This document shows, piece by piece, positions 15,791-47,892 of a stretch of DNA of 48,270 nucleotides (within the stretch, counting starts at the first letter, position 1; every line of letters begins with the position of its first letter). The stretch is from a virus: IMG/VR virus record IMGVR_UViG_3300036861_000152, positions 1 through 48,270 of that record; one strand, given 5' to 3'. Under the pieces are notes generated by a model. That model did not search any database, had not been told where the DNA came from, and saw only the letters and a list, made by a program, of their open reading frames with translations. Both the position numbers and the translations under genes were made by a program.

Positions 15791-16194
15791 AAGGGCTAAG
15801 ACTCACCGAGGACGATCTAAAGCAGATCCAAGCCCGAGCCGATCACCGGAAGATCAAAACGCACATTCTCGACAAGAAAGACGCCCCCAAATTCCTGGTT
15901 CAAATCCTGATGAAGGATGTAAAAGACGCGGGACTTCCAGAACCAGTCGTCGAGCATCGTTTCCACGATGTCAGAAAGTGGAGGTTCGATCTTGCTTGGA
16001 TTGAAGACAAGGTTGCTCTTGAAGTCGAGGGCGGGATCTGGACGCAAGGCAGGCATTCCCGCGGCGTCGGGATGGAGGCCGACATGGAGAAATACAACAC
16101 CGCGCAGCTCATGGGTTGGACTGTTCTTCGCTATTCGACGGGGCAGATAAAGCAGGGAAAGCCCATCGAAGATTTGAAGAGGGCGCTCGCCTGA
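15787..16194 (+). CDS. Small PD-(D/E)XK endonuclease
   Basis: A 135-residue protein from GTG (overlap GTGA). VEHRFHDVRKWRFDLAW followed by VALEVEGGIWTQGRHSRG gives the D-x(n)-E-x-E core of Vsr/DUF559-like or resolvase-like nucleases, and EKYNTAQLMGWTVLRYS is the usual last motif. In the nin-like region it may act as a Holliday junction resolvase or a general endonuclease. Confidence 0.8.
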   Translation: MKGLRLTEDDLKQIQARADHRKIKTHILDKKDAPKFLVQILMKDVKDAGLPEPVVEHRFHDVRKWRFDLAWIEDKVALEVEGGIWTQGRHSRGVGMEADMEKYNTAQLMGWTVLRYSTGQIKQGKPIEDLKRALA

Positions 16195-16835
16195 AACTCT
16201 TCACAGGCTACGATCCTCGAGAGACTGAGGGCTGGCATAAGTTCGCCCAGTCGCTGATTGATACCTCTCCCGGTATTGGCCTAACCCCAATTCGGGACGA
16301 TCAGGCAGACGGGACTAATGCCTTTACCTATGCCAGATTCAGAATCCCCAAGCTTTGCAACTGGGGAGGTTGGGCGTGTTTCGTTGATGGCTGCGACATG
16401 CTTTTAAGGGCGAACATCAAAGAGCTATTCGATCTTAGAAACCCGGGTTATGCGGTCCAGGTCGTCAAGCACGACTACAAAACGAAACACGCGAGGAAGT
16501 ACGTCGGGACCGAGATGGAAGCCGAAAACCACGATTACCCGCGAAAGAACTGGTCGAGCGTGATCCTGTGGAACTGCGGGCATATCGCGCACTTCAAAAA
16601 CAGACAGAGGATGAGCACGACAGACGGCAAGTTCCTGCACAGGTTCGGATGGCTGGACGATGAACAGATAGGGGAATTGCCTGTCGAATGGAACTGGCTT
16701 TGCGATGAATACGGGGAGAATCCCGAGGCGAAGCTTTTGCACTGGACAGCCGGGGGGCCGTTTCTCCCGCATTACGCAAATTCTCCAATGTCGGCTCATT
16801 GGCATGAATACGAAGGAGTATATGGATCAAGTTGA
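16191..16835 (+). CDS. Glycosyltransferase, apparent CTG start
   Basis: 214 residues if read from CTG at 16191, which overlaps the previous stop as CTGA and has GAAGAGGG upstream. The predicted N-terminus (M)KLFTGYDPRETEGW is the classic start of GT-A fold phage glycosyltransferases, and ACFVDGCDMLLRANIKELF carries the acidic DxxD-type donor site. No ATG, GTG or TTG occurs near. Such an enzyme in the early region could modify host surface sugar or DNA. Acceptor unknown. Confidence 0.7.
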   Translation: MKLFTGYDPRETEGWHKFAQSLIDTSPGIGLTPIRDDQADGTNAFTYARFRIPKLCNWGGWACFVDGCDMLLRANIKELFDLRNPGYAVQVVKHDYKTKHARKYVGTEMEAENHDYPRKNWSSVILWNCGHIAHFKNRQRMSTTDGKFLHRFGWLDDEQIGELPVEWNWLCDEYGENPEAKLLHWTAGGPFLPHYANSPMSAHWHEYEGVYGSS

Positions 16836-21704: not shown

Positions 21705-23923
21705 CGCAGCAAGCATATGAGGCGTCGTCGGCCTTCCTGGACGCTAATCACAGGTCCGACATTGATTACAGCCTCAAGGCTTTCAGAAACGAGCATGCGG
21801 CGGGGTCCAAGTATTTGAGCGCTGAGTATGCCTCTCGTTCGAGACTTTTCAGGCCGAAGACCCGCTCGGTAATCCGCAAGAACGAAGCTGCTGGAGCGGT
21901 GGCTTTGTTCAGCAACATGGACGTTGTGAACATCACTCCAGGAAACCCGGACGACGTGATGTCGGTTGCTTCGGCCGAAGCCTTGAAGGAAATCCTCGAG
22001 TACCGTCTTTCCAGAACCATTCCTGCTTTCCCCTTGGTGATGGGCGCGCTTCAGGACGCGCAGACAGTAGGGATGGTTTGCTCATATCAGTATTGGGAGT
22101 TCGAGAAAAGGGGCGGAAGAGTAATCAAGGACAAGCCCTGCATTGATCTAAGACCGATCGAAAACATCCGAATTGACGGTGGAGCTAACTGGCTAGATCC
22201 GGTGGGAACGAGCCCGTATTTCTGCGACATTATCCCCATGTACGTGTGTCAGGTCAGGGGAATGATGAACAACAGGGACGAAAAGACCAACGCCCCGCAG
22301 TGGAAGAAATACGAGGACTCGGTGATTCTGCGGGCTCGCCCCGACGTGATGGACAGCACGAGAAAGGCGCGTCTTGGAAAGCAGCAAGACCCCTACGATG
22401 AAACCACTGGTATCAAGGACTTCGACATCGTTTGGGTGATGCGCTGGTTCATGCGCGATTCGCTGAACGACGATTACGCCTACTACACGCTCGGCACCGA
22501 AGAGCTGCTCACCGATGCAAAACCCCTGGAGGAAGTCTACTTCCACGGGAAAAGACCTTATGTGATGGGCTACTCGATCCTCGAGACCCATCGCGTGATG
22601 AAGACGAGCATGCCGGTGCTCGTCAGGTCTTTGCAGCAGGAAACAAACGAAATCGCAAACCAGCGCATCGACAACGTGAAATTCGTCCTCAACAAGCGCT
22701 GGATGGTCGCAAGAGGAAGGCAGGTAGACGTAAATTCGCTCGTCCGCAACGTTCCGGGCGGCGTGACTCTCGTCACAGATCCCAAGACTGACGTTCAGGA
22801 GTCCAATTGGCCCGATGTCACCAGCTCTGCTTACGTTGAGCAGGATCGTTTGAACGCAGACTTTGACGACGTGGCCGGGAATTTCTCTCCCAACACCAAG
22901 TTTGCGAACAAGGGCACGAACGATACGTTGGGCGGAACGCGGATGGCTGCCCAAGGTGCGGGGATGATGACAGACTACCTTTTGCGCACGTTCATCGAGA
23001 CCTGGTACGAGCCCATGCTAAGGCAACTGGTGCTCCTCGAGCAGTATTACGAGACCGATGAAGTCGTTTTGTCGGTGTGCGCGAACAAGGCGAGGCTTTT
23101 CCCGCGTTTTGGGTTGTCCAGGATCACGGACGATCTTTTGATGAACGAGGTCAACGTCTGCGTGAACGTCGGGATGGGGTCGAGTAATCCTAATGAAAGG
23201 TTCCAGAAGTTCGTCATCACCGCCCAGACTGCACGTCAACTGGTGCTGAACGCCCCGCCGGGTTTCAACGTGAAGGAGGAGCTGAAGGAGCTTTATTCAA
23301 ACGCGGGGTTCAGGGACGGGGAGAGATTCTTCCCCGGCAAAGAAGACCCGAGGCTGGTACAGGCGATGCAGATGGTCCAGCAGCTTCAGCAGCAGCTCAA
23401 GGGTAAGCTGCTGGAGCTGCAATCTACAGCCGAGGTTGAGCGGCAGAAGCTTCTTTCCAACGAGCGGGTGAAGGGGGCGGAGATCCGCGTGAATGCGGCG
23501 CGTATCGACGGAGACCTTGCCGTAAAAAGAGCGGAGTTGGAACTGAAGCGGCTGGAGATTCTGAAGGATTCGACGCCGGATTTAGCCGAAGAAATCGACG
23601 CCCCGATCGATGCGGCAATCGAAAAAGTGCAAAGCCTGATCGCCATGCACGCCGTAAAGATCAACGGTGCCCTGGAGGTTGACAAGGCGAAGCGCGAAGC
23701 AAAAGCCGAGGTCAGCGACGCCAAGGCGAAGACCGCGCAAGCAGAAACACAAACCAAGATGGCCGAGACCACGGCTACTCGCATCGAGGCGTCGAACAAG
23801 CAGTTGATGGACGGCGTGAATCAGATTCTCCAAGGCATAGCGGCCCTCGGCGCGCAGAAAAAGCGGATTACGCTGCTCAAGAAGGACGGGCAAACAGTTG
23901 GAGCTGATGTATTGCCTGCGTAA
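21683..23923 (+). CDS. Portal protein (P22/podovirus-like)
   Basis: A 746-residue protein. After the helical N-terminus come RLFRPKTRSVIRKNEAAGAV, the middle VMRWFMRDSLND and long helical blocks (QETNEIANQRIDNVKFVLNK) typical of podovirus portals. Residues 540-746 are a long Lys/Glu/Gln-rich helix, the barrel-type C-terminal extension (EVERQKLLSNERVKGAEIRV, KREAKAEVSDAKAKTAQAET). It forms the dodecameric DNA gate. Its position after terL supports the call. Confidence 0.85.
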   Translation: MADFLDLAQQAYEASSAFLDANHRSDIDYSLKAFRNEHAAGSKYLSAEYASRSRLFRPKTRSVIRKNEAAGAVALFSNMDVVNITPGNPDDVMSVASAEALKEILEYRLSRTIPAFPLVMGALQDAQTVGMVCSYQYWEFEKRGGRVIKDKPCIDLRPIENIRIDGGANWLDPVGTSPYFCDIIPMYVCQVRGMMNNRDEKTNAPQWKKYEDSVILRARPDVMDSTRKARLGKQQDPYDETTGIKDFDIVWVMRWFMRDSLNDDYAYYTLGTEELLTDAKPLEEVYFHGKRPYVMGYSILETHRVMKTSMPVLVRSLQQETNEIANQRIDNVKFVLNKRWMVARGRQVDVNSLVRNVPGGVTLVTDPKTDVQESNWPDVTSSAYVEQDRLNADFDDVAGNFSPNTKFANKGTNDTLGGTRMAAQGAGMMTDYLLRTFIETWYEPMLRQLVLLEQYYETDEVVLSVCANKARLFPRFGLSRITDDLLMNEVNVCVNVGMGSSNPNERFQKFVITAQTARQLVLNAPPGFNVKEELKELYSNAGFRDGERFFPGKEDPRLVQAMQMVQQLQQQLKGKLLELQSTAEVERQKLLSNERVKGAEIRVNAARIDGDLAVKRAELELKRLEILKDSTPDLAEEIDAPIDAAIEKVQSLIAMHAVKINGALEVDKAKREAKAEVSDAKAKTAQAETQTKMAETTATRIEASNKQLMDGVNQILQGIAALGAQKKRITLLKKDGQTVGADVLPA

Positions 23924-25304
23924 CTTCATTGTTGCGCTTCTAATGCCAGCCACGATAAGCCACGCGCTGTCGATGACTACGCCGGATGATTCGGCGTATG
24001 AAAACCAGCCTCAGCACTGGAACTCTGCGCACGCAGTCACATTCAGTGTATCGGCGACGGAGATTTCAGGGCTGTTCAGCAACGCCAATGGAATCTCATT
24101 TGGGTTAAGCGAAAGTTCTATAACTGCCAGTCACAACGCCCTGACGACGGCAATGGCGTCGAACAGAGGGAGTGATTTTGTCCAAGCTACAGCAGCGTTT
24201 GCCGGGACTAGTGCCTCCGGGACGATAGCCAGTAACGGGATCTCCGTCAGTATCGGCCCGTACATCACGACAGCGATGGCCTCGAATAGAGGCTCTGACT
24301 TCGTGCAGGCGAACGCGGGTTTTGCAGGAACAAGCGCCTCTGGAACGATTGCCAGCAATGGAATTTCGGTAAGCATCGGGCCGTATATCACCACGGCTGC
24401 TTTATCGAATCACTCGCACGGCAACCCGACGCTAGCGCTGACGAACTTGTCTGGCACTACGGCGAGCGCCAGCGACGGATTAACGCTTTCTCTGTCGGCG
24501 GCTGCGCCCGGTGGCGGAGCGAACCAGTCTTTTTATATGTGGCCGGATGAGATTCAAAACTCCTCTGCCTATCAATGTCAGCAATCGACTTCGCACGTCC
24601 AGCCCGTGTATCTCCCGTTCCCGATGTCGGTCAGCTACATAAGGCTTCCGGTGACGATGTCGTGTGTGGGGAGCATGGCGTCCATCGCTACGGCGGCGAA
24701 CGTAACGCGCGGCATGACCATGAGTTCGACATGCAACGTCGGGTTCTACACGCAAGGGACAGGCGCAAGTTCTCGCAGCCTTGTTTCGTATGCGACGGGT
24801 TCCGCCTCTTGGGTCCAGCAAGCGACCTATATGGCGGCCGGGACGGGATCGCGCTGGAGTTCCGGACACACGATCTCGTTCCCGCAGGAAGGCGGGAACA
24901 CGAATTTCACGTCGTCCGCAGGCACAACGCTGACGAACGTCACGATCAATTCTACGCAGCTTAGCGACTTCACTGGCCTGCGCTTCATGGATATTCCGTT
25001 TGCAACATCGCTTGCAGCGGGCGCGTACTGGTTCATGTTCGGCTGTAGCACTTCGGGGTCCAGCAGCGGCACGGCCAACGTCTCGACGTTGCGCATTCTC
25101 GCGAGCAATTTCGCTGCTACGCAGGTAAACCAGGCGTTCAATGTGATGGGAGTCGCAACAAACAGCAGCAACCATTTCCGGCAGGGCTTGGGAAGCTGGA
25201 CGACGAACACCATCGGTACGATTCCAGCCTCAATCGCGTTAGGGAATATTTCGACCAGCGCGTCGAACCCGATCATGCCGTTCCAGTTGATCAGGCAGGC
25301 ATGA
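23907..25304 (+). CDS. Ser/Thr-rich virion or tail-fibre-like protein with tandem repeats
   Basis: About 465 residues. I use the ATG at 23907 (TTGGAG just upstream); ATGs at 23943 and 23973 are also possible, as the first 25 residues overlap the portal end. MTTPDDSAYENQPQHWNSAH opens a surface-protein type frequent in uncultured phages. Two 41-residue repeats (TTAMASNRGSDFVQA...ISVSIGPYI) follow, then a large strand-rich C-terminal domain. More than a quarter of residues are Ser or Thr. It probably projects from the virion. Confidence 0.6.
   Translation: MYCLRNFIVALLMPATISHALSMTTPDDSAYENQPQHWNSAHAVTFSVSATEISGLFSNANGISFGLSESSITASHNALTTAMASNRGSDFVQATAAFAGTSASGTIASNGISVSIGPYITTAMASNRGSDFVQANAGFAGTSASGTIASNGISVSIGPYITTAALSNHSHGNPTLALTNLSGTTASASDGLTLSLSAAAPGGGANQSFYMWPDEIQNSSAYQCQQSTSHVQPVYLPFPMSVSYIRLPVTMSCVGSMASIATAANVTRGMTMSSTCNVGFYTQGTGASSRSLVSYATGSASWVQQATYMAAGTGSRWSSGHTISFPQEGGNTNFTSSAGTTLTNVTINSTQLSDFTGLRFMDIPFATSLAAGAYWFMFGCSTSGSSSGTANVSTLRILASNFAATQVNQAFNVMGVATNSSNHFRQGLGSWTTNTIGTIPASIALGNISTSASNPIMPFQLIRQA
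24144..24389 (+). repeat. Two tandem 123-bp repeats
   Basis: Units begin at 24144 and 24267. They encode nearly identical 41-residue blocks but differ at many third codon positions, so the duplication is old and kept by protein selection or diversified by recombination. Confidence 0.8.
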
Positions 25305-26011
25305 AGATCATTGTGCAGGAATCGAGCGGCCGGCATAACGCGGATCTCACGAAGACGCGGGGCCGTTTGCTCCAAGGCGGATCTTGGAAGAAGCAGAGGG
25401 TGGTGGAGATCGTCCCTGCGGCGGACACGATTGCAGCCGAGGTCTATTACAACCATCGACAGCTCTACTACCCGCCGAATAACGGTATTTACCGGATGCT
25501 CGCATTGGGCGATGAAGTCGGGATTGCCTATTCAAATGCGATTGAATGGGTACTGGAGAATCCAGAACTTTCAAAGTGGGAATACATCCTGACGCTGGAA
25601 CACGATAACGGCCCCCCGGCGGACGGTGTGATCCGCCTTATCGAGCGCATGGAGCAGCACCCAGAATATTCCTGCATCGGCGGACTCTACTTCACCAAAG
25701 GCGAGGGCGGGGTCGCTCAGATATGGGGCGACATTAAAGACCCCTGCGTCAATTTCAGACCGCAGCTACCAGATCCTGCTGGTGGGCTGGTGGAATGCTA
25801 CGGAACAGGAATGGGCTTCAATCTCTTCCGGCTTGCAATGTTCAAAGACTCCAGGCTGAGAAAGCCGTGGTTCAAGACGGAGAAGCATAACGGGGTCGCC
25901 ACGCAAGATTTATATGCATGGGGAGATTTCAGGAAGTACGGCTACCGCTGCGCGATTGATTGCTCGGTGAAGGTGGGGCACTTCGACAGCAACACGAAAA
26001 CTTGGTGGTGA
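25301..26011 (+). CDS. Glycosyltransferase-like protein
   Basis: A 236-residue protein with ATG overlapping the previous stop (ATGA). VVEIVPAADTIAAEVYYNHR, ILTLEHDNGPPADGVIRLIE (a donor-site EHDN), CIGGLYFTKGEG and CYGTGMGFNLFR fit a GT-A fold glycosyltransferase of the GT2/Anp1-like kind. It sits immediately after a Ser/Thr-rich virion gene and before a methyltransferase, so modification of virion protein or of a glycan is inferred. Confidence 0.7.
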   Translation: MKIIVQESSGRHNADLTKTRGRLLQGGSWKKQRVVEIVPAADTIAAEVYYNHRQLYYPPNNGIYRMLALGDEVGIAYSNAIEWVLENPELSKWEYILTLEHDNGPPADGVIRLIERMEQHPEYSCIGGLYFTKGEGGVAQIWGDIKDPCVNFRPQLPDPAGGLVECYGTGMGFNLFRLAMFKDSRLRKPWFKTEKHNGVATQDLYAWGDFRKYGYRCAIDCSVKVGHFDSNTKTWW

Positions 26012-26554
26012 ATGGCAAAGCCAAAGCTAAAAATAATTGAGGAGACGAAGCCGCTCAAGCTTGATCTTGGCTGCGGCAAGAATCCGCGTGCTGGATTCAT
26101 CGGCGTCGATTGCCGAGACTTCGGGCAGGAAATCACCACGGACTTACGGCAGAAATGGCCTTGGAAAAATGGGTCCGTGGAGGAGGTCCACGCCTCCCAT
26201 TTTCTGGAGCACCTGACAGGACACGAGCGCGTGCATTTCTTTAACGAGCTGTACCGCGTGCTTATAGATGGCGGGAAGGCGACCATTGTAGTGCCGCACT
26301 GGTCTAGTGAGAGAGCTTACGGAGATCCGACCCACCAATGGCCTCCGGTGGTGTTCTTTGCGTTTTACTACTTGAATAAAGAGTGGAGGGCGCAAAACGC
26401 TCCGCACAGTGGTTATGAGTGCAATTTCGAGGCTACGGGCGGCAATCAAATAGGCCCCCCGTGGACACTGCGGAGTCAGGAAGCCCAAGCCTTCGCTCAA
26501 GCTCATTACACAAACGTATCTACTGACTTGGTCTGCACTGTAATTAAGCGCTGA
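26012..26554 (+). CDS. SAM-dependent methyltransferase
   Basis: A 180-residue class I methyltransferase. Motif I is LKLDLGCGKNPRAGFIGVD (about 18-37), with VHASHFLEHLTGHERVHFFN and LIDGGKATIVVPH as post-motifs, as in methyltransferases acting on glycans and small molecules. Its ATG is adjacent to the glycosyltransferase stop. Confidence 0.8.
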   Translation: MAKPKLKIIEETKPLKLDLGCGKNPRAGFIGVDCRDFGQEITTDLRQKWPWKNGSVEEVHASHFLEHLTGHERVHFFNELYRVLIDGGKATIVVPHWSSERAYGDPTHQWPPVVFFAFYYLNKEWRAQNAPHSGYECNFEATGGNQIGPPWTLRSQEAQAFAQAHYTNVSTDLVCTVIKR

Positions 26555-26958
26555 TGGCGATTCTAGGCTACCAAGTAACCAACTCGGCCTACCAGGGCAA
26601 TTTCGCCTTTCAGGGGAGCGTGGATGTTGCCGCGACGACTACCGGCGGCGGCGGTTCGAGGAGAAAGCTAAGACGCAGACGACCGAAATACTGGAGCGAG
26701 TCTCTAGAGCCGGCGGCGCGGGAAGTCATCATCGTATTGGCGGCGGAGCAAGTAGAGAACCCAGTCCATGATCAGGAGCGCGTTGCGCAACTGGAAAGCG
26801 CCCTAGCCAGGAAGAACATCGCTCTGGATGGGGCGCTGATCGCAGCCCTGGAAGCAGAGCGCGAGCGCCTTATAGGAATCGAGGTAGCGAAATATCTCCA
26901 AAGGCTCATGGAACGAGAGGATGAAGATTTGCTCTTGGTATTGGCCGAGGCGTTGTGA
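26554..26958 (+). CDS. Hypothetical structural-region protein
   Basis: A 134-residue protein with start overlapping the previous stop (TGATG). The N-terminus MAILGYQVTNSAYQGNFAFQ is typical of small phage structural-region proteins. A Gly and Arg rich linker (GGGGSRRKLRRRR) and a helical acidic C-terminus follow. Unknown. Confidence 0.55.
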   Translation: MAILGYQVTNSAYQGNFAFQGSVDVAATTTGGGGSRRKLRRRRPKYWSESLEPAAREVIIVLAAEQVENPVHDQERVAQLESALARKNIALDGALIAALEAERERLIGIEVAKYLQRLMEREDEDLLLVLAEAL

Positions 26959-27245
26959 GCGAGAGAGACAGGGGTGAATTGATAGCCGAGGCGTTAATCG
27001 GCGATGAGGCTAAAAAGTTCAAGGAAAGCGATCTCGGGAAATGTTTGACAGGGATGGCTTTGCAGGAGTCGCAGTTGGCGATGGAAGCGCTGGCGACTGT
27101 GAACCCGACCGATTCCAATGCAATCGAGAGGTTGCAGAACCGCGTGTCGTTGGGCAAGCAGTTCCCGGCATTTATTGACGAGTTAATAGAACGGGGCAAT
27201 CAAGCCCTGCTGGAGTGGAAACAAAGCCATGAGACGCAGAACTGA
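26955..27245 (+). CDS. Hypothetical protein upstream of scaffold, GTG start
   Basis: 96 residues from GTG (GTGA). Helical throughout (SERDRGELIAEALIGDEAKK; ALATVNPTDSNAIERLQNRV). No family recognised. It overlaps the scaffold start by 17 bases. Confidence 0.55.
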   Translation: MSERDRGELIAEALIGDEAKKFKESDLGKCLTGMALQESQLAMEALATVNPTDSNAIERLQNRVSLGKQFPAFIDELIERGNQALLEWKQSHETQN

Positions 27246-28350
27246 ACAAGCCGCCGACAGAGCGGCAGCGCAAGCATCGGAAGCCGCCCGAGTCCTGCAG
27301 CAGCGCAGCCAGGAATCCAAGACGGAAAAGGTAGAGCCCGTCAAGGTTGAACCTCCCAAGGTTGAACCCGCCAAGGTAGAGCCGACTCCTGAGGTAGAGA
27401 AATCTCTCGGGCCAAAGGTCATTACGCGGCGCAACGCTCGCCGGGAAGACGTTCTAGATGAGATTCGCCAGAGCAGGGGGGAACCGAAGGAAGAAGCCGA
27501 AACAAAGGAGCCGCCGAAAGAGCCTGAAATCACCGAACCCAAGGTTGAGACAGAGACCGCTCCGGAGGCCGTACAGCCAGCTCCAGAAGCCCCCAAGACC
27601 GTCAAGCAGATCGTGGATGGGGAGGAGCATGAAGTTCCCCAGAGCGAAGTAGATGAAGCCGGAGGGGCTCAGGCATGGAGGATTGCGCGAGCCCAGGAAA
27701 ACCGCCTCAAGAAGATGAACGAGGCGAACACTGAGGCGAAGCAGCGCGAGGAACGTATTGCCAAGATTGCCGAAGCAGTCCTCCAGCGGCAGCAGCCTCA
27801 ACAACCTTCAGTTACCGATCAGCAGTTCATCGCCGAGCGCATCGACAAGGTTCGATTTGGAACCCCGGAAGAAGCCGCCACCGCTCAACTGGAGATCATG
27901 CAGCGCATCAACAAGCCGGTGGACCAGAATGCTTTGTTGGGTCAGGTGCTCTCGGCAGTGGATCGCAAACAAGCCGCTGCCGATTTCATGAAGGAATATC
28001 CCGAGGTAGCGGCGAATCGATTACTGCTAAAGCTAGCGGTAACTTTGGAGCATGAGGAGCTAGCGAACGCGAGAAAGTCTGGTCAAGCTATTGACTGGCG
28101 CAGCCTTTACAGTAAAATCGGGAACCAAGTTAGAAGCGTTGCTCCCGCGCGGCAATCCCAGCCCCAGGCAACGCCAGCGACAAGCGGCAATCCCAGCCAG
28201 GCGTCCGAGAGAGAAGCGCGTAAGGCTTCGATAACCGTTCTTCCGACTGCTTCTTCGGCTCGCGCCGAGTTGCCGAAGGAAGAAAAACCGGAGACCCGCG
28301 AAGAATCCCTCAATCGAATGAGGAAAGCGCGAGGTCAGCAGCCGCAATAA
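27229..28350 (+). CDS. Scaffolding-like protein
   Basis: A 373-residue protein, very charged and helical, with KVEP repeats (about 30-52) and Pro/Glu-rich stretches. The C-terminal part has a dimer-like helix (FMKEYPEVAANRLLLKLAVT) and a basic end (ESLNRMRKARGQQPQ). Composition and position directly before the coat gene match phage scaffolding proteins, which shape the prohead. It has no protease motif. Confidence 0.7.
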   Translation: MRRRTEQAADRAAAQASEAARVLQQRSQESKTEKVEPVKVEPPKVEPAKVEPTPEVEKSLGPKVITRRNARREDVLDEIRQSRGEPKEEAETKEPPKEPEITEPKVETETAPEAVQPAPEAPKTVKQIVDGEEHEVPQSEVDEAGGAQAWRIARAQENRLKKMNEANTEAKQREERIAKIAEAVLQRQQPQQPSVTDQQFIAERIDKVRFGTPEEAATAQLEIMQRINKPVDQNALLGQVLSAVDRKQAAADFMKEYPEVAANRLLLKLAVTLEHEELANARKSGQAIDWRSLYSKIGNQVRSVAPARQSQPQATPATSGNPSQASEREARKASITVLPTASSARAELPKEEKPETREESLNRMRKARGQQPQ

Positions 28351-28359
28351 GGAGAAAAA

Positions 28360-29352
28360 ATGGCTGGGCAACTATTTGTCACAAACTCACTTGGGGGTTT
28401 CTATTCGGCCCTCAACCTGAGCAAAGAACTGCGGATGGGGGTGCAAGCGACCTCCAAGTTCCGACAGTTCGCGGACGTTCGCGATGCGTTCGCCAAAGTC
28501 CAGAGGAGCGGGCAGACCTTTACGTGGGACGGCGTCCCGATGCTCGCTCGCGCTAACCGGGCATTGACGGAAACGAACACCATTCCGCAGGGAAACCACA
28601 CCATCTATCAATCGACTCTCACGATGCTCGAGCGTGGTTACAGCGTTCCCTACACGGGTTTCGTGGAAGCTCTTGCGATGGTCTCGGTGAGACAGCCGAT
28701 CATGAAGGTGCTGAAGTACGACGCGATGGTGGACATTGACTGTGCAGTACATGCGCAGTTCAACAACACCGCGGTCCGTGCGGCCTCTACCGGGACTGGC
28801 GTCAACGTCACGCTGACCTCGAACAGCTCCGCAACTCTCACCGTGACCGACAACATCGGCCAAGTGCAGTGGCGTTCTGTCGTGGATCAGATGAAGGGAA
28901 GAAACATTCCCTTCTACGATGGCAAGTCTTATTGGGCCATCGCCCGCCCTGCGGGTCTTCGTCTCATGAAAAACCAACTGGAAGCGGTGCATCAATACAC
29001 CGAGACCGGCCTGGACATGATCATGAATAACGAGATCGGCCGCTACGAGGATACGAGGGTCGTAGAGCAGACCGTCGTTCCTACTGGTGGGGCGACGGAC
29101 TCGACCACGTTCAACGCCTTCACCGACACCGGGGACGCATGGAATACCGGCGGCGACTGGGTGTTTTTCTTCGGCGAGGACACCGTTTGCGAGGCTGTCC
29201 ACACCGAAGAGGAAATCCGGGCCAAGAACCCGGATGACTACGGTCGATCCAAGGGCGTCGCGTGGTATGCGCTTCTCGGTTATGGAATCACGCACAACGA
29301 TTCCAACAACCTCGCGCAGACCCGGATCGTGAAGTTCGACTCGGCGTCGTAA
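28360..29352 (+). CDS. Major capsid protein
   Basis: 330 residues after a GGAG site. MAGQLFVTNSLGGFYSALNL, FRQFADVRDAFAKVQRSGQT, WIDGVP-like WDGVPMLARANRALTETNTI, and the C-terminal VAWYALLGYGITHNDSNNLA match coat proteins of the N4 gp56/P22-type HK97 fold. Likely the main shell subunit. Location after the scaffold supports this. Confidence 0.8.
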   Translation: MAGQLFVTNSLGGFYSALNLSKELRMGVQATSKFRQFADVRDAFAKVQRSGQTFTWDGVPMLARANRALTETNTIPQGNHTIYQSTLTMLERGYSVPYTGFVEALAMVSVRQPIMKVLKYDAMVDIDCAVHAQFNNTAVRAASTGTGVNVTLTSNSSATLTVTDNIGQVQWRSVVDQMKGRNIPFYDGKSYWAIARPAGLRLMKNQLEAVHQYTETGLDMIMNNEIGRYEDTRVVEQTVVPTGGATDSTTFNAFTDTGDAWNTGGDWVFFFGEDTVCEAVHTEEEIRAKNPDDYGRSKGVAWYALLGYGITHNDSNNLAQTRIVKFDSAS

Positions 29353-29492
29353 AGAGTAAGCGGGGCTTCCTCCGCGAGATGGGATTGACGCCTGGCAAGG
29401 AGCCTGCCGGGGCGTAAAACACAATGACGGCCTTCCCCGTCAATTGAAAAAGAAGATCCTAGCCGGGAGGCGGCGAAGGACGGAGAAGAGAA
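29353..29492. other. Gap after coat gene with a small hairpin
   Basis: 140 bases with no convincing gene. TGACGG and CCGTCA pair around CCTTCC near 29422-29441, possibly slowing transcription or protecting the coat mRNA. GAGAAG near 29485 is the ribosome site for the next gene. Confidence 0.4.
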
Positions 29493-29906
29493 ATGCCCGC
29501 AATTGATTTCAGTTACGACCATCCGAACTACACGATCATCCGGCAGTCGTGCCACTCTGCGGCGACCACCACCGCAATAGCGGCGCAGCCCGGCTTGACC
29601 TTCCGGTCTCGCGTGGCCTGCGTAGTGACGCAGATTACCGCCATTCTCGGCGGGACGGTTTCGACCACCACACTCATCATCACGCTGCTTTTCAACAATT
29701 CCGTAGCAGCGCTGCTGACGCTGGAGGAGTCGATTAACCAAACGATCGGGACGTTCACGCTTGGGGCTAACTACACCCTGACGAGCTTTACCGATCGGTT
29801 CGAGGTCGGAGTGGGTGCTGGAGCTTCTGCGCCGTACATCACGGTGTCCTACGAATACCGCATCGTGCCCGGCTCGACGTTCAGCCTTGCCTCGGCGATT
29901 GCGTAA
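29493..29906 (+). CDS. Small virion/decoration-like protein
   Basis: A 137-residue, strand-rich protein (YTIIRQSCHSAATTTAIAAQ; IGTFTLGANYTLTSFTDRFE) with many Thr, Ser and Ala. It directly follows the coat gene. A head decoration or fibre subunit is likely from position and composition. No family match. Confidence 0.55.
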   Translation: MPAIDFSYDHPNYTIIRQSCHSAATTTAIAAQPGLTFRSRVACVVTQITAILGGTVSTTTLIITLLFNNSVAALLTLEESINQTIGTFTLGANYTLTSFTDRFEVGVGAGASAPYITVSYEYRIVPGSTFSLASAIA

Positions 29907-29914
29907 CTAGGCTT

Positions 29915-29938
29915 CCCTCCTCCAGAAATGGGGGAGGG
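29915..29938 (+). terminator. Stable GAAA-tetraloop hairpin
   Basis: CCCTCCTCCA (29915-29924), GAAA loop and TGGGGGAGGG (29929-29938), a 10-bp stem with one G-U pair. Only two T follow, so it is probably a weak terminator or mRNA stabiliser between head genes and the sugar-modification genes. Confidence 0.55.
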
Positions 29939-29963
29939 TTAACCCCCAATAAGAGGGGTAGCG

Positions 29964-31469
29964 ATGCAAGAACAAGCGGTTGAAAAACCGCCGGTACAGA
30001 TTCAAGCCCAGATCGCAAGGGCCGCAGATCCCGCCGAGCTGGACGCTTGGTATCGGGAGCATGGTTTACAACCGGACAAAGACGGCATCTTTGCCGAGAT
30101 GCCTTATGGAGCGCCCCCTGTCAGCAGGGAGCACATCCTCGAGCAAGTGGCGGCGAACGCTTTACGCCACGACGTTCCGAATCTTCACCCTCGGGAATAC
30201 ACGCCGAAGATCATGGTGTACGTCGGCGGCGGGCCGACTCTCAGGGATCATCTCGATGAGATCAAGCGCAAATGCGAAGACGAGGCTTATGAGGTCTACA
30301 CGTCGAATGCGACGTGCAGGTTTATAACCTCTAAAGGCATCAAGCCGGATTTTCACCTGATTCTAGATCCGACTGAGCGCAAGGTCAGGGACTTGGATTA
30401 TGAGGAAGACGTTCCGCTAGTCCTGGGTCTTCAGTGCCATCCTAAGCTTTTCGAGAGAGCGAAAGACAAGGGCGTCAAGGTCTACAAGTTCTTGGCGGCT
30501 TCGGTTACGGGAGCTGATGGAAAGTCGGATAAAGAAGCTGCGCAAGCCGCATTGACAAAGGAAGACTCCCAACTGATGGGTATTGGCGGGGGTTCGATGT
30601 GCGGGACGAGGATGATCTATTTCGCCGTGGCGATGGGCTATAGACGCCTGGAGTTCTACGGGGTTGACGGCAGCGTGGACATGAAGGATGGGCTTGTCCG
30701 CTGTTATGCCTATAACAAGCCGCGGGGCGAAAATATCCTGGAGACGACGGCCGAGAACGGAAAGAAGTTTTACACAACCATGTCTTTGGCGAGGCAGGGA
30801 GAAGAGCTAGTTCTTCTCCTTGACCAGATGCCGGGCTTGGATGTCGAGATATACGGCGACTCTCTGATGGCGAATCATCTCGCCCTCTATAGGGAATTAA
30901 GAAAACCACACCCTTGGTGCATCACTCCCGAGTACCTTGAACTTCAGCGCCAGATGCACGAGGAATACGGTGCTAGTTACGGGCAGGTCGGCAAGTACCA
31001 CGCGCCCAGGGTCTTCATGGCGGCTGCGCAGGTGCTGCGAAAAGTCGGCCGGTGCCGGGTTCTCGACTATGGGGCTGGCAAGGGGGCGCTTTGCAAAGCG
31101 ATCGCACAAGCGTTCCCGGAAGTTCCGGGGATCAGCTATCACGAGTATGACCCCTGCGTGCCGGGAATCGACAGTCCACCGTTGCCGGCCGAGGTCGTGT
31201 TCTGCGGGGATGTAATGGAGCACGTAGAACCGGAGTGCGTCGATACCGTTTTGCGCCATATCCGCGACCTGACGAAAGAAGTGGCGATTTTCATCATTTC
31301 CCTGTCAGAGGCCGGGAAAAAGCTTGCGGACGGCAGGAACGCGCACATCAGCCTGCACGGGGCTGATTGGTGGAGGTCATACCTCAAGAAATATTTCTTG
31401 GTCGTTGAGCACCAACTGGAGCCCGCTGTACATGCTTTGGTCGCGGTGTGCGTGAGATTGCCGAGATGA
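29964..31469 (+). CDS. DUF115/MptE-like domain fused to methyltransferase
   Basis: A 501-residue protein with two domains. Residues about 75-270 (KIMVYVGGGPTLRDHLDEIK, NATCRFITSKGIKPDFHLIL, MGIGGGSMCGTRMIYFAVAM) match DUF115, the fold of MptE and of Maf flagellin glycosylation proteins. Residues about 340-500 are a class I methyltransferase (CRVLDYGAGKGALCKAIAQA, VVFCGDVMEHVEPECV). The combination suggests transfer or decoration of a charged sugar. GAGGGGTAGCG precedes the ATG. Confidence 0.75.
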   Translation: MQEQAVEKPPVQIQAQIARAADPAELDAWYREHGLQPDKDGIFAEMPYGAPPVSREHILEQVAANALRHDVPNLHPREYTPKIMVYVGGGPTLRDHLDEIKRKCEDEAYEVYTSNATCRFITSKGIKPDFHLILDPTERKVRDLDYEEDVPLVLGLQCHPKLFERAKDKGVKVYKFLAASVTGADGKSDKEAAQAALTKEDSQLMGIGGGSMCGTRMIYFAVAMGYRRLEFYGVDGSVDMKDGLVRCYAYNKPRGENILETTAENGKKFYTTMSLARQGEELVLLLDQMPGLDVEIYGDSLMANHLALYRELRKPHPWCITPEYLELQRQMHEEYGASYGQVGKYHAPRVFMAAAQVLRKVGRCRVLDYGAGKGALCKAIAQAFPEVPGISYHEYDPCVPGIDSPPLPAEVVFCGDVMEHVEPECVDTVLRHIRDLTKEVAIFIISLSEAGKKLADGRNAHISLHGADWWRSYLKKYFLVVEHQLEPAVHALVAVCVRLPR

Positions 31470-32134
31470 GGGTCATCGCTTTTGCCTATGCGGATGCAAT
31501 TCCCAGATTGACCCCGATCTACAGGGGTCTTGCGGAAGACCTGGTATCCAACATCAAGGCCGTGATGCCGGGAACCAAGATCGTTCACGTCGCGGACGAA
31601 ACGACGCATCCGATTCCGGGGGCGGAAGTCTTGCGGGTGAAGCGTGACGTGCCGTTGATGACGTGGCACATGCGCTGCCACAAAGAGGCCCAAAGCCTTG
31701 GGGATGAGGTCCTATTCACTGAGCCGGATGTTCGCTTCCGCGCCGATATTCTCGATGTGTTCGACGATCCGGACTTCGATATAGCGGTGACGGAAAGAGA
31801 AGTCGATTCGACTTGGACCATTGATGGCCGCAAAGTCCTTCTCTCGGCCGTAGCGCCCTATACCCTCGGGACGACCTTTTCGCGCAGCGCCAAGTTCTGG
31901 GAGGAAGTAACGGCTCATTGCGCGACTCTCGGGCAAGCCGAACAGCACTGGCTGGGAGACATGCTTTCGCTGTGGGCGATCATGCAGACCGGGCGCTACA
32001 AGGTGAAGGTGATTCCAGGCCCTATCTACAACCACATCCCCTGCTCTCGGGAGGACTCCTGCGATGTGAAGGTGCTCCACTACAAGGGGATGCGCAAGGA
32101 ATGGTTGTTTAGAGGCATGAGAGAAGCCGCATGA
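31466..32134 (+). CDS. Glycosyltransferase-like protein
   Basis: 222 residues from the ATG overlapping the previous stop (ATGA). MRVIAFAYADAIPRLTPIYR and DEVLFTEPDVRFRADILDVF (acidic donor site EPDV) and VTEREVDSTW suit a GT-A type enzyme. The C-terminus VIPGPIYNHIPCSRED and VLHYKGMRKEW (a His loop) are typical too. Part of the same coupled cassette. Confidence 0.65.
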   Translation: MRVIAFAYADAIPRLTPIYRGLAEDLVSNIKAVMPGTKIVHVADETTHPIPGAEVLRVKRDVPLMTWHMRCHKEAQSLGDEVLFTEPDVRFRADILDVFDDPDFDIAVTEREVDSTWTIDGRKVLLSAVAPYTLGTTFSRSAKFWEEVTAHCATLGQAEQHWLGDMLSLWAIMQTGRYKVKVIPGPIYNHIPCSREDSCDVKVLHYKGMRKEWLFRGMREAA

Positions 32135-32772
32135 AGAAGGTAAACGGCGGCGCGTGGATTCCTGACGACGAAGAAGACAGGGTAATGCTCGGGGCCGGGG
32201 TCAAGTATCAATCCAACAAGCTTTTAGCGGCGTTGCCTTACTGCAAGCGGGCGAGAACGGCTATTGATGCTGGCGCGCATTGCGGTCTGTGGACGGTCCA
32301 GCTCGCTCAATATTTCGAGAGAGTGGAGGCCTTCGAGCCCCTTCAAAGACATATCGAGTGCTGGAAGAAAAACGCCTCGTGGAAGCTGACTAACCACCTT
32401 CATGAAGTAGCCCTCGGAGAAAAAGACAGTTCCTGCGGCATGCACCTTGTCGAGCGCATGTCAGCCAGAAGCCACGTTAACGGCGGCAGTGAATACAAGA
32501 TGAATCGCCTTGATGATTATGAATTTGAAAATGTGGACTTCATCAAGGTCGATGTCGAGGGCTACGAGCTATTCGTTTTGAAGGGGGCGGAACAAACGCT
32601 ATTGAAATACAAGCCCTGCGTAGTAGTGGAGCAGAAACCGCATCACGGAGGGAAGTACGGCCTTTCGGACACGGCTGCGGTTGATTATCTGAAGTCTTTG
32701 GGCGCAGAAGTGCGCGCGGAGATCGTCGGCGATTTCATTATGAGTTGGCACGCGCCGGAATTGAAGTCGTGA
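32131..32772 (+). CDS. FkbM-family methyltransferase
   Basis: A 213-residue protein. AIDAGAHCGLWTVQLAQYFE (motif I, about 44-63), VEAFEPLQRHIECWKKN and FIKVDVEGYELFVLKGAEQT (the FkbM hallmark) are clear. FkbM enzymes O-methylate sugars and polyketides. Start and end overlap the neighbours by four bases (ATGA, GTGA). Confidence 0.85.
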   Translation: MKKVNGGAWIPDDEEDRVMLGAGVKYQSNKLLAALPYCKRARTAIDAGAHCGLWTVQLAQYFERVEAFEPLQRHIECWKKNASWKLTNHLHEVALGEKDSSCGMHLVERMSARSHVNGGSEYKMNRLDDYEFENVDFIKVDVEGYELFVLKGAEQTLLKYKPCVVVEQKPHHGGKYGLSDTAAVDYLKSLGAEVRAEIVGDFIMSWHAPELKS

Positions 32773-34502
32773 CCTGGAGCATCGAAAAAAGCCAAGGCAA
32801 CGAATCCCGGCACGTCGTTTGGGATCTGGTGCCCTACATGAGAGGCGAGGCCTTGGATCTTGGCTGCGGCCCCTACAAGGCACTGCCGCACTTTATCGGC
32901 ATTGACTCCTGCAAGGACACCGATATTTTCGGAATCCAGATGCGCCCGGACATGAAGCGGGATGTCACGAAACTTCCCGGACTCGCCTCCGGGCACTATG
33001 ACTGCGTTTACAGCTCGCACACCCTGGAGCACGTTGAGGACCATGTAGCGACGCTCCGGGAATGGTGGAGGCTTGTAAAAGTAGGCGGGTATCTGTGCTT
33101 GTATCTCCCCCATGCGGATTTTTACCCGCGGTGCAAGGGAAAGGAAGAATGGGACGAGTGGTGCAAGGAGCATCCGCCGGCAGAGTTCGCCAGTTCAGCC
33201 GCGGCGGTGGAAGCCTTTGCTAACGAACGAAGGTCTAAGGGGTTGACCAAGATCGGCGAGATTTACGCGGGGACCCCATTCGCCAACCCGGACCACAAGA
33301 GCGATTTTCTCCCGTCCGACATCATCAACGCGATGAAGAAGATCGGCGGTGGGTTTGATCTTGTGGAGAACGAAGAACGAAACGAGGGAGATGAATACTC
33401 CTTCTGGCAGGTCTACAAGAAGATTACCAGCGGTATCAAGGAAAGCTGGAAAGAGCCGAAACCAGCGAAGACCTGCGCGGTCATCCGTTACGGAGCCCAG
33501 GGCGATCACATCATTAGCTCGAGCATCTACCCCTGGTTAAAAGAGCAGGGCTATCACATCACGCTCTACTGCCAAACAGGACTAGGTTATGAAGTGGTGA
33601 AGCACGATCCCCATATCGACCGCTTCATCCTTCAGGAGAGGGACGCCGTTCCCCCTCAGTTTCTAGGGGAGTTTTGGGGACACGAGAAGAAGAAGTACGA
33701 CAAGTGGGTCAACCTTTGCGAGTCTGTAGAGGGCACGCTTTTGGCATGTCCTGACCGGGTGCAGTACGAATGGCCGAACCATTTGAGGGCGAAGTATCTG
33801 GACAGGAATTACCTTGAGTGGACCCACGAGTTGGCGGAAGTCCCGCCTCCGTATAGACCAAAGTTCTATTCAACGGAAACAGAGAAAACGTGGGCGAGGC
33901 AGCAGGCGGCGAAGTTCGGAAAGAGAAACGTCCTGTGGTCTCTGGCCGGCAGCTCCGGCCATAAAGTGTGGCCGCACGTAGATGCAATCATCGCTGGGTT
34001 GATGCTCCAGTATCCCGACGTTCATGTGGTAACGGTCGGGGATGAGGCTTGCGAACTGCTTGAGCAGGGCTGGGGGCGAGAGCCGAGGGTTCATTGCCGC
34101 TCTGGAAAGTGGAGAATCAGGGAGTCTCTTGCTTTTGCGGAAGTCGCAGACTTGATCATCGGGACGGAGACCGGGCTTTTGAATGCCGCCGGGTCCATGG
34201 ACGCTCACAAGATCATCACACTCTCGCACTCGAGCGAAAATATGCTCACCCGCCACTGGGTAAATACGACGGTTCTTAAGCAACCAGATGGTATTGGTTG
34301 CTCCAAGAGATGGACCGAGAATGGTGGGGCCTGCAGGCAATTGCACGGCGGCAATGGATTTGATCCTTGGAAAGACTGCCCCAAACATGAAGGTGAAGGG
34401 GTTGCTCTATGCCAGTACCACGTCGGTCCTGAAATGATGTGGGGAGCGGTAGAGCGGGTCTTGGGAAAGCCGAACGTAATTCCGATCAGGAAAGCAGCAT
34501 GA
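32769..34502 (+). CDS. Methyltransferase fused to GT9-like glycosyltransferase, GTG start
   Basis: 577 residues from GTG. Residues 20-215 are a class I methyltransferase (EALDLGCGPYKALPHFIGID, SSHTLEHVEDHVATLREWWR). Residues about 235-560 look like GT9/heptosyltransferase-type transferases (TCAVIRYGAQGDHIISSSIY at the start, VLWSLAGSSGHKVWP, and the donor site ADLIIGTETGLLNAAGSM). A Cys-rich insertion near the end (CSKRWTENGGAC, DCPKHEGEGVALC) is unusual. It could add and methylate a sugar. Confidence 0.8.
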   Translation: MTWSIEKSQGNESRHVVWDLVPYMRGEALDLGCGPYKALPHFIGIDSCKDTDIFGIQMRPDMKRDVTKLPGLASGHYDCVYSSHTLEHVEDHVATLREWWRLVKVGGYLCLYLPHADFYPRCKGKEEWDEWCKEHPPAEFASSAAAVEAFANERRSKGLTKIGEIYAGTPFANPDHKSDFLPSDIINAMKKIGGGFDLVENEERNEGDEYSFWQVYKKITSGIKESWKEPKPAKTCAVIRYGAQGDHIISSSIYPWLKEQGYHITLYCQTGLGYEVVKHDPHIDRFILQERDAVPPQFLGEFWGHEKKKYDKWVNLCESVEGTLLACPDRVQYEWPNHLRAKYLDRNYLEWTHELAEVPPPYRPKFYSTETEKTWARQQAAKFGKRNVLWSLAGSSGHKVWPHVDAIIAGLMLQYPDVHVVTVGDEACELLEQGWGREPRVHCRSGKWRIRESLAFAEVADLIIGTETGLLNAAGSMDAHKIITLSHSSENMLTRHWVNTTVLKQPDGIGCSKRWTENGGACRQLHGGNGFDPWKDCPKHEGEGVALCQYHVGPEMMWGAVERVLGKPNVIPIRKAA

Positions 34503-34526: not shown

Positions 34527-35510
34527 ATCAGTACATCGGGCTCTTGGGACTTTAGCCTCACCGCAGCCCAGATCATCGCGGCGGCGTATGAGGATCTTGG
34601 TGTCATTGCACCAGGGGGAACTGTCGCCTCCGCAGATTCAACGATGGCGCTGCGGCGTCTCAACATGCTCGTCAAGCAGTGGCAGGGAAATTCCGACCTC
34701 GCTCCCGGGCTCAAGATTCACACCAGGCAACGGGTAACGCTCTTCCTCGCTGTTGGTCAGCAGAACTATCTTGTTGGTCCTGCATCCACCGACGCCCGAG
34801 CAACAACCCAATACGGCAGGACGACTGTCAGCTCGGCCTACGCAAGCGGCACGAGCCTGTCCGTAACCGCCCTGACCGATACGACGACTTACCCCGGAAC
34901 GACGGTGACGATGACCGCCTCGGACATCATCGGTGTGGAGTTGAACGATGGGACGATCGGATGGACAACGATTAGCGCCGCGGCTTCCAGCCCCATCACG
35001 TTAGCTGCGGGTCTCGGTGGAGCTGCGGCGGCAGGCAAATACGTCTGGTGGTTCACATCAAGGGCTCAGAGATTTCCGCTGATCGAGTCGGCGGTCCTCA
35101 GAAATTCCAGCCTCGACGATACGCCGCTCGCCGTCTATACAGATGTCAGGGACTATGAGCTGGGAATTGCCGACAAATACTCGGATGGCCAGCCGTCCGC
35201 GATTCTGGTCGAGCCGCTACGAATTGCGACGCGGGTTATCTGCAATTCCCAACCGACCGATATAACGAGCCAGGTCCTCATGACCGTCCTTTACCCGGCC
35301 GAGGACTACGACGCCACCAGTGACGACATAGCTTTCCCGCAGGAATGGTTCGCGGCGCTGTCGTGGGAGCTTGCTCTGAGGCTTGCTCCCGCCAAAGGAA
35401 GGCCATGGACTCCGGAGATGGACATGAACCATAAGACGGCGCTGGCGATGGCGCGGTCTGTGAATCCAGAGAACTGCACGCTCTACTTTCAAGGCAGCGG
35501 TGTGATCTAG
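34527..35510 (+). CDS. gp4-like head completion protein, apparent ATC start
   Basis: 327 residues if read from 34527. STSGSWDFSLTAAQIIAAAY and STMALRRLNMLVKQWQGNSD are the P22 gp4-type N-terminus, and PLRIATRVI... to the end matches too. gp4 plugs the portal after packaging. The frame has no ATG, GTG or TTG before 34644, which would cut off the conserved start. GGGAG lies 6 bases before an ATC at 34527. Either ATC initiates or a G-to-C change at 34529 damaged an ATG. Confidence 0.7.
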   Translation: MSTSGSWDFSLTAAQIIAAAYEDLGVIAPGGTVASADSTMALRRLNMLVKQWQGNSDLAPGLKIHTRQRVTLFLAVGQQNYLVGPASTDARATTQYGRTTVSSAYASGTSLSVTALTDTTTYPGTTVTMTASDIIGVELNDGTIGWTTISAAASSPITLAAGLGGAAAAGKYVWWFTSRAQRFPLIESAVLRNSSLDDTPLAVYTDVRDYELGIADKYSDGQPSAILVEPLRIATRVICNSQPTDITSQVLMTVLYPAEDYDATSDDIAFPQEWFAALSWELALRLAPAKGRPWTPEMDMNHKTALAMARSVNPENCTLYFQGSGVI

Positions 35511-37318: not shown

Positions 37319-38041
37319 CTACAGGCGGAACTTATGCCATACATCGCCGTGCTGGATACGCCACGGCTGGCGAGGCTCGCACAACAATTCGCCGCAGGCT
37401 TCAAAGAAGCCCACATTGCGCACCGGATCGTAGCGCACGCGGCCCGGCAGCACGCTCTCGCAGGCGAGCTGCGTACTGAATTTCTGGTCAATGAGGGCGA
37501 CGACCCACTTCTTCGGCCGCTGGCGCAGATAAAAGAGGATGTCAAGGCAGGCGCCCTTCGATCCGTCCGCGAGGATTTCGGTCGGCCCGTCCACGAAAAA
37601 GAGATCAGCATCCGGAATCTCGGCATCGTAGCGAACGCCGCGGATGCCGTCGAAAGCCGCTTCGACAGCCTCGGCGTGAACGGCGGTCACTGGCAGTTCG
37701 CGGATCAGTGGCAAGAGGTCGCGGTGGTAGGAATCAATCGCCTCGAAGGTGACGAGATGCCCTCCGGTTTGCTTGAGGGCATGGCCGAGTACGACCGAGG
37801 ACTTGCCGGACCCGAACTCCACTACGACGCGCGGCTTGTGCAGCAGCACGTAGCGGTGCAGGAGCATGTAGTCGGTGAGATCGGCTCCCGTGCTGCAGGA
37901 GCCGTCAAGGTCTACGCCCAGCCCTCTGATGTAGATGGCAGCGAGAGATTCGTTCTCGGCGATGGCGTCTCGGAACGTGGCGCGGCTTTGCCATCGGCGC
38001 GTGATCTCGTAGCGCAGCCGCCTTTCTATGCGAGCAAGCAT
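37319..38041 (-). CDS. SAM methyltransferase on the opposite strand
   Basis: 240 residues from the ATG at 38041 (a GTG at 38059 would add six). Motif I RVVVEFGSGKSSVVLGHALK (about 75-94), GGHLVTFEAIDSYHRDLLPL and DADLFFVDGP (about 145-154) mark a class I methyltransferase with an FkbM- or Mcf-like acidic site. It fills exactly the space between two plus-strand virion genes. The plus-strand frame over the same bases (37310-38056) lacks such motifs. An inserted cargo gene is likely; its promoter would lie inside the next gene. Confidence 0.75.
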   Translation of the reverse strand: MLARIERRLRYEITRRWQSRATFRDAIAENESLAAIYIRGLGVDLDGSCSTGADLTDYMLLHRYVLLHKPRVVVEFGSGKSSVVLGHALKQTGGHLVTFEAIDSYHRDLLPLIRELPVTAVHAEAVEAAFDGIRGVRYDAEIPDADLFFVDGPTEILADGSKGACLDILFYLRQRPKKWVVALIDQKFSTQLACESVLPGRVRYDPVRNVGFFEACGELLCEPRQPWRIQHGDVWHKFRL

Positions 38042-38059
38042 GCTCGACGAGCCTAGCAC

Positions 38060-47238: not shown

Positions 47239-47582
47239 AGTTCATCTATCTCGCCTCGCCCTACTCGCATCCAGATCATGAAGTGCGGGAAGCACGCTAC
47301 CGTGCCGCTTGTCGCAAGGCCGCTCAGTACGCGCGAAAGGGCATCGCGGTTTTCGCCCCCATCGTGCATTCCCATCCGCTCGTGCCATACATGGATGCGG
47401 CGCAATGCATGGACTTCGACCTTTGGATGAAACTCGACTTGCCGCTCCTGAAAGCCGCCGACGAGTTGCACATCCTTTGCATTGATGGCTGGCGCGCATC
47501 TCGAGGCGTAACGCGGGAAGTGGAGTTCGCTACGCAGATCGGCGTCCCAGTCAAACAGGTCTTCCTAGACGTGGAGCCATGA
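47235..47582 (+). CDS. DUF1937 nucleoside deoxyribosyltransferase-like protein
   Basis: 115 residues from the ATG overlapping the previous stop. MKFIYLASPYSHPDHEVREA and the middle ADELHILCIDGWRASRGVTR plus EVEFATQIGVPV are the DUF1937 pattern, related to nucleoside 2-deoxyribosyltransferases. It may act on nucleotides or NAD-like molecules. Confidence 0.8.
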   Translation: MKFIYLASPYSHPDHEVREARYRAACRKAAQYARKGIAVFAPIVHSHPLVPYMDAAQCMDFDLWMKLDLPLLKAADELHILCIDGWRASRGVTREVEFATQIGVPVKQVFLDVEP

Positions 47583-47583
47583 C

Positions 47584-47892
47584 ATGCCGGTCGAGATGGT
47601 GGAAATGAACATCCTCGAAGAAGCGAACAGCCTCGTTCACGGCGATCGGAACAAGGACTACAAGCACCCGCACGTTGATTACTCCTGCACTGCGGCTATG
47701 TGGCGCGCATTAATCCAGCGCCGCTATGGGGTAGACGTGCCGATCACTCCTGACTTTGCCTGCCTGCTCATGATCGCCGTCAAGTTGTCCCGCGAAGCCG
47801 GGAAACACAAACGAGACAACCTCGTGGACGCGGCAGGCTACGCCGAGTGTGCCTCGTGGTGCTTGGAATATGAGCAGGAGCAGACGAAGTGA
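47584..47892 (+). CDS. MazG-like/DUF6378 protein
   Basis: 102 residues. HGDRNKDYKHPHVDYSCTAA, MWRALIQRRYGVDVPITPDF and AVKLSREAGKHKRDNLVDAA, with GYAECASW, match the DUF6378 MazG-like nucleotide pyrophosphohydrolase fold, which may clear altered nucleotides. It is translationally coupled to the endolysin (GTGA). Confidence 0.7.
   Translation: MPVEMVEMNILEEANSLVHGDRNKDYKHPHVDYSCTAAMWRALIQRRYGVDVPITPDFACLLMIAVKLSREAGKHKRDNLVDAAGYAECASWCLEYEQEQTK

Follow-up and report, generated by a model that had tools for sequence, protein, structure and literature searches.

Why should a phage carry a series of sugar and methyl transferase genes among the genes for its head? This question is raised by the IMG/VR virus record IMGVR_UViG_3300036861_000152, analysed here over its 48,270 bases (the window), in which six transferase genes lie between 25301 and 34502. 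An earlier note on this DNA had proposed that they modify the virion rather than host DNA or the envelope. Our analysis favours the same answer: the cassette is likely to be a late-expressed cytoplasmic system that glycosylates the phage's own virion proteins. What speaks for it are pairs of an enzyme and a serine/threonine (Ser/Thr)-rich protein that recur on unrelated phages, the likeness of one enzyme, GT1, to A197 of the Sulfolobus turreted icosahedral virus (STIV) and to collagen glycosyltransferases, and the match of the DUF115 domain of another, MptE-MT, to the flagellin glycosyltransferase Maf. In such a system, each unit would consist of a Ser/Thr-rich virion protein encoded directly upstream of its own modifying enzymes. 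We lean, by a small degree, to the wider view that uncultured phages swap portable 'self-glycosylating' modules (a fibre or decoration protein with a dedicated glycosyltransferase and methyltransferase), and that a single virion may here combine at least two units, one of them Maf-type, with a clade-specific MT-GT9 core.

A repeat fibre, GT1 and MT1 recur together

The first unit (unit A) comprises the following genes:

23898-25304, plus strand: Ser/Thr-rich (27%) repeat fibre, proposed acceptor of unit A.
25301-26011, plus strand: GT1, glycosyltransferase of predicted GT-A fold, with an ATGA overlap with the fibre stop.
26012-26554, plus strand: MT1, S-adenosylmethionine (SAM) methyltransferase and partner of GT1 (PF08241, 3.8e-5).

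Relatives of GT1 were found in at least 299 stretches of viral contigs, 80 of which were kept. Before dereplication, 74 of 79 GT1 loci had a fibre homologue and 78 an MT1 homologue. In the dereplicated set, the fibre was located at most three genes upstream in 53/64 loci and MT1 at most three genes downstream in 61/65, and a coat or a portal homologue was present within 12 genes in 3/65 and 5/65 loci, respectively. Judged from these sequences, the fibre-GT1-MT1 trio travels jointly across phages with unrelated backbones. Since a scan with the window fibre as query returned one locus and the fibre alignment held no conserved stretch, the repeat motif was taken as bait for the reciprocal test. 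GT1 was found within three genes in all 13 testable loci, that is, those with sequence beyond the fibre (12 contigs, two of them also in the GT1 set). An apparent fibre-GT1 fusion in loci L113 and L274 was discarded as a frameshift artefact: ahead of the start of GT1, the C-terminus of the fibre shifts to another frame. In a collection of species genomes, GT1 was present at 3 loci among 84,980 species genomes, all on contigs of uncultured bacteria that gave no clue to the host, and the three annotated phage records with GT1 were of a single type, with the order large open reading frame (ORF), methyltransferase, GT1, methyltransferase.

A Pfam search with GT1 alone gave no match. Its relatives share an invariant E100-x-D102, and its predicted structure (predicted local distance difference test, pLDDT, of 85) shows a GT-A fold. 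The closest structure was the viral protein STIV A197 (Z 19.0, root-mean-square deviation 2.4, 16% identity over the aligned part), followed by the LH3 glycosyltransferase domain, Mimivirus R699 and ColGalT1, collagen glycosyltransferases among them. In the proposed scheme, GT1 would transfer a host-supplied nucleotide sugar to Ser/Thr residues of the repeat fibre, and MT1 would methylate it.

A Maf-like enzyme follows a small Ser/Thr-rich protein

The second unit (unit B) begins directly after the coat gene and involves, in addition, a glycosyltransferase-like gene, GT0, which had previously been overlooked:

16116-16835, plus strand: GT0, GT8-like glycosyltransferase (PF01501 in 10/16 family members, best 3.8e-5; WbbM and GT8 structures matched).
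29493-29906, plus strand: o137, small Ser/Thr-rich (25%) protein of 137 aa after the coat, proposed acceptor of unit B.
29914-29938, plus strand: strong hairpin in the gap that separates o137 from the enzyme genes.
29964-31469, plus strand: MptE-MT, MptE/DUF115 (Maf-like) glycosyltransferase domain (PF01973, 1.1e-17, above the cut-off) fused to a methyltransferase (PF13489, 4.2e-8).
31466-32134 (ORF from 31448), plus strand: GT2, nucleotide-diphospho-sugar transferase-like (PF03407, 2.8e-4, just under the cut-off), with an ATGA overlap from 31466.
32131-32772, plus strand: FkbM family methyltransferase (PF05050, 1.6e-12; TIGR01444, 1.4e-19).

PF01973 is the core domain of Maf (PMC11339370) and was detected in 18/18 relatives of the MptE-MT fusion, whose family profile also matched the solved Maf structure 5mu5 (E 1.6e-7 over 169 profile positions). 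The assignment of DUF115 to the Maf flagellin glycosylation family is sustained by the 5mu5 match, while the link to nonulosonic acids that the earlier note added is a mere family association. The fusion is present in about 30 dereplicated loci. When the locus bears a coat gene, o137 followed by MptE-MT was observed in 9/10 dereplicated cases; in other phages the partner of MptE-MT is a long Ser-rich fibre, several of these pairs overlapping by 1-4 bases. A scan with o137 returned nothing beyond the relative already known, and a search of plasmids with MptE-MT gave no match. It is possible that o137 is a decoration protein.

A strong hairpin was found at the junction of o137 and MptE-MT in 8/9 loci, the sequence being otherwise different, and in 0/23 similarly long gaps elsewhere in these loci. 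The hairpin of locus L002 (9936-9997) is a canonical intrinsic terminator. We infer that the hairpin lowers expression of the enzymes relative to the coat and o137, possibly as an attenuator or a processing site.

In other phages, GT0 was located at most three genes from MptE-MT in 17/30 dereplicated loci, and it probably belongs to the same system as the cassette. MptE-MT would initiate a glycan on o137, and GT2 and FkbM, perhaps with GT0, would extend and methyl-cap it. As a separate observation, GT0 is accompanied in many phages (L203, L206 and others) by a stand-alone methyltransferase that resembles the C-terminal half of the fusion, and an MT3 homologue was found within three genes of GT0 in 42/49 cases, partly by selection.

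MT-GT9 is a constant component of the coat-adaptor interval

The last enzyme of the cassette lies between two head genes:

28360-29352, plus strand: major coat protein (phrog_1357, 6.6e-15; N4-gp56 family TIGR04387, 1e-8, under its cut-off).
32769-34502 (ORF from 32745), plus strand: MT-GT9, methyltransferase-GT9 fusion (PF08241); the GTG at 32769 gives a GTGA overlap and fits the family start.
34644-35510, plus strand: adaptor-like head protein (phrog_12985; synteny), which closes the cassette interval.

Homologues of both the methyltransferase and the GT9 domain were present in the coat-adaptor interval, which is otherwise variable in length and content, in 33/33 loci outside the window that have both coat and adaptor, several of them near-duplicates. 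With a stricter dereplication of adaptor-bearing loci, GT9 was found in 12/12 and the methyltransferase in 11/12. The two domains are fused in most of the 33 loci and are separate genes in the remainder. In locus L017, a separate methyltransferase (201 aa) stands between two GT9 genes (343 and 346 aa), which shows that the core enzyme has been both duplicated and split. The GT9 family PF01075 was sub-threshold in the window copy (0.033) and was detected in 16/19 relatives (best 2.6e-10). No match to the MT-GT9 protein was obtained in 50,697 phage records, and in cultured phages of Vibrio and E. coli whose coats are related, no counterpart of the cassette is annotated in the coat-adaptor interval.

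The model of MT-GT9 (pLDDT 85) matched GT9 enzymes of the GT-B fold, with Z values of 24.2 for 3tov, 23.3 for WaaF, 21.1 for WaaC and 20.1 for the protein heptosyltransferase TibC, and its N-terminal half matched SAM methyltransferases. Invariant in the family are a G-D dipeptide (D254), an H-K (K407) and an E-T-G motif, which we take to be the catalytic Asp and the nucleotide-binding residues of heptosyltransferases, as well as four Cys near the C-terminus (C519, C530, C545 and C556). As the core enzyme of the head operon in this clade, MT-GT9 would probably decorate a Ser/Thr-rich protein of the head or tail with a heptose-like, O-methylated sugar, this acceptor being the least certain part of the scheme.

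Ser/Thr-rich neighbours are specific to certain enzyme families

With the fibre and o137, the virion proteins next to the enzymes are indeed as Ser/Thr-rich as had been claimed. The gene directly upstream was Ser/Thr-rich in 52/64 loci for GT1 (p=4e-22) and in 20/28 for MptE-MT (p=8e-10), both p-values being indicative only, because the neighbouring genes of related phages are partly dependent on one another. Between coat and MT-GT9, 30/36 dereplicated loci had a Ser/Thr-rich ORF, mostly as the first one behind the coat, compared to 34% of same-size windows (p=1e-9). The same upstream-neighbour test showed no Ser/Thr enrichment for FkbM, GT0, GT9, portal or scaffold.

These counts bear on the idea that a permissive insertion site by the head genes collects unrelated cargo. 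The variable length and content of the coat-adaptor interval would agree with it, as would the placement of GT1-MT1 elsewhere in other phages. However, MT-GT9 is invariant in that interval, the order fibre-GT1-MT1 is kept across differing backbones, the enrichment of Ser/Thr-rich neighbours is confined to two enzyme families and the hairpins recur at the o137 junction alone, which makes chance accumulation quite improbable.

Virion proteins or other targets

A second explanation would be that the enzymes alter a host surface glycan (lipopolysaccharide, LPS, or capsule) late in infection, blocking superinfection or re-adsorption to debris, and that fibres travel with receptor-masking enzymes. 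It is strongest for GT9, which comes closest to LPS heptosyltransferases; a co-selection of receptor-binding fibres and receptor-modifying enzymes is conceivable, and the phage possesses an integrase. We nevertheless consider it rather unlikely, since the phage lacks nucleotide-sugar synthesis genes (epimerase and NTP-transferase families) as well as the flippase-like membrane protein GtrA (PF04138), searched for as a test of Gtr-type serotype conversion. Moreover, the enzyme genes sit in the late operon, where 4-nt overlaps couple them, and not beside the integrase, MptE-MT also pairs with a small post-coat protein, an unlikely receptor binder, and GT1 resembles protein glycosyltransferases.

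Several points weigh against glycosylation of virion proteins. Gene neighbourhood is no proof of an enzyme-substrate relation, and the role of a fibre-linked glycosyltransferase could instead be to mask the receptor that the fibre uses on the host. In structure, the GT9 domain comes nearer to WaaF, an LPS heptosyltransferase (Z 23.3), than to TibC (Z 20.1), and GT9 is directly preceded by a Ser/Thr-rich gene in just 6/35 loci. Finally, the fibre alignment is of low complexity, homology resting on the repeats and a weakly conserved C-terminus.

That the enzymes glycosylate or methylate the phage DNA, as T-even phages do, is extremely improbable. DNA glycosyltransferases are known from phages, this phage has several methyltransferases and the window contains a nucleoside-deoxyribosyltransferase-like gene (DUF1937, 47214-47582), but the thymidylate-synthase/hydroxymethylase family (PF00303) expected for T-even-type glucosylation is absent from the phage, and the genes are late, tied to genes for Ser/Thr-rich proteins and without a match to the DNA-glycosyltransferase family. 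If virion proteins are glycosylated, the benefit might lie in surface masking, in stability or in the avoidance of receptors on debris.

Gene coupling and composition of the cassette

All six transferase genes listed in the earlier note are present, and their claimed domains were confirmed, with weaker support for GT1 and GT2. They also form, as described there, two coupled blocks around head genes, with the coat gene and the scaffold-like gene listed here between them:

27229-28350, plus strand: scaffold-like protein between the two enzyme blocks, identified by synteny with the coat across 83 loci, with no family match of its own.

Within the blocks, genes overlap by ATGA, GTGA or TGATG or abut: the fibre/GT1 junction is ATGA, GT1 and MT1 abut, a TGATG follows MT1, and the junctions of the second block are, in order, ATGA, ATGA and GTGA. 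From this overlap pattern, GT2 and MT-GT9 are likely to start at 31466 and 32769, respectively. The arrangement exceeds chance, as the clusters were found again in many other phages.

A further methyltransferase, given as 37319-38041 and counted as co-transcribed, has to be removed from the list:

37319-38059, minus strand: PF13578-like methyltransferase (PF13578, 8.4e-4, under the cut-off).

Because it is antisense to the late operon, it is not co-transcribed with it, and the G+C content of the segment is 62.5% versus about 56%. This gene is probably an insert of later date among the late genes, likely a recent acquisition, and was dropped as a member of the cassette.

Comparison with known systems

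According to Freeman et al. 2023 (Cell Host Microbe 31:1216; via PMC11600133 and PMC13313380), mycobacteriophage capsid and tail tube proteins are modified by phage-encoded glycosyltransferases and a methyltransferase, so that this kind of system is already known. Glycosyltransferases and methyltransferases are likewise found among the virion genes here. The mycobacteriophages are actinobacterial siphoviruses in which an O-methyltransferase is followed downstream by three glycosyltransferases in tandem, whereas this phage has a P22-like order, Maf-like and GT9 enzymes and a coupling to separate genes for Ser/Thr-rich proteins. No mycobacteriophage record was matched in the searches with GT1 and MT-GT9.

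STIV A197 is essential to its virus and has been proposed to glycosylate the coat protein B345 (PMC10551542). Like GT1, it is a viral GT-A enzyme, in its case one presumed to glycosylate a coat protein with a donor from the host; STIV differs in being an archaeal virus. Maf flagellin glycosyltransferases, which act in cytoplasmic flagellar O-glycosylation, share with MptE-MT the PF01973 domain and a gene position beside a Ser/Thr-rich surface protein. MptE-MT differs in its fusion to a methyltransferase, in being phage-borne and in an acceptor other than flagellin. For A197, we know of no methyltransferase partner.

The autotransporter heptosyltransferases TibC/BAHT, and likewise WaaC/WaaF, share the GT-B/GT9 fold with MT-GT9. 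The four invariant cysteines of MT-GT9 recall the iron finger of TibC (C339/342/358/370; PMC4358343), although the spacing differs. Where TibC has an N-terminal beta-barrel, MT-GT9 has a methyltransferase, and TibC aligns from residue 93. TibC/BAHT act on autotransporters, and there is no autotransporter in this phage system.

Phage protein glycosylation is, to our knowledge, documented in few systems, and we are not aware of a Maf-type transferase previously tied to phage virions. Within the part of the literature known to us, three things appear to be new: substrate-enzyme units that are portable, virion proteins with a Maf-type enzyme tied to them, and an uncultured clade with GT9 as a core gene. 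If the pairing rule holds, the neighbouring gene would tell which protein an uncharacterised glycosyltransferase of a virus modifies, and small enzyme-substrate pairs would be ready for expression tests. Maf-type and GT9 enzymes would then extend to phage virion proteins, and sugar-coated fibres and head proteins could be common in uncultured phages, affecting adsorption, stability and recognition.

Genome organisation and other genes

The P22-like gene order of the record opens with the integrase:

874-1845, minus strand: integrase.

It is followed by terminase, portal, fibre, scaffold-like, coat, adaptor-like and head-closure (phrog_578) genes and by a block of genes that probably encode injection proteins. 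Positions 1-144 and 48127-48270 form a terminal repeat of 144 bases (98.6%), so the genome is probably complete at about 48.1 kb. A promoter/terminator scan of the window gave counts close to or under those of shuffled sequence. The DUF1937/nucleoside 2-deoxyribosyltransferase-like gene at 47214-47582 lies near a lysis-type peptidase gene (47889-48227), and a DHH/DHHA1 phosphoesterase-like gene is located at 3116-3934 on the minus strand. The leftward gene block also contains, at 6574-7971 on the minus strand, an SPFH/Band 7 membrane-type protein (PF01145, 1.8e-17), which is unusual for a phage of this size.

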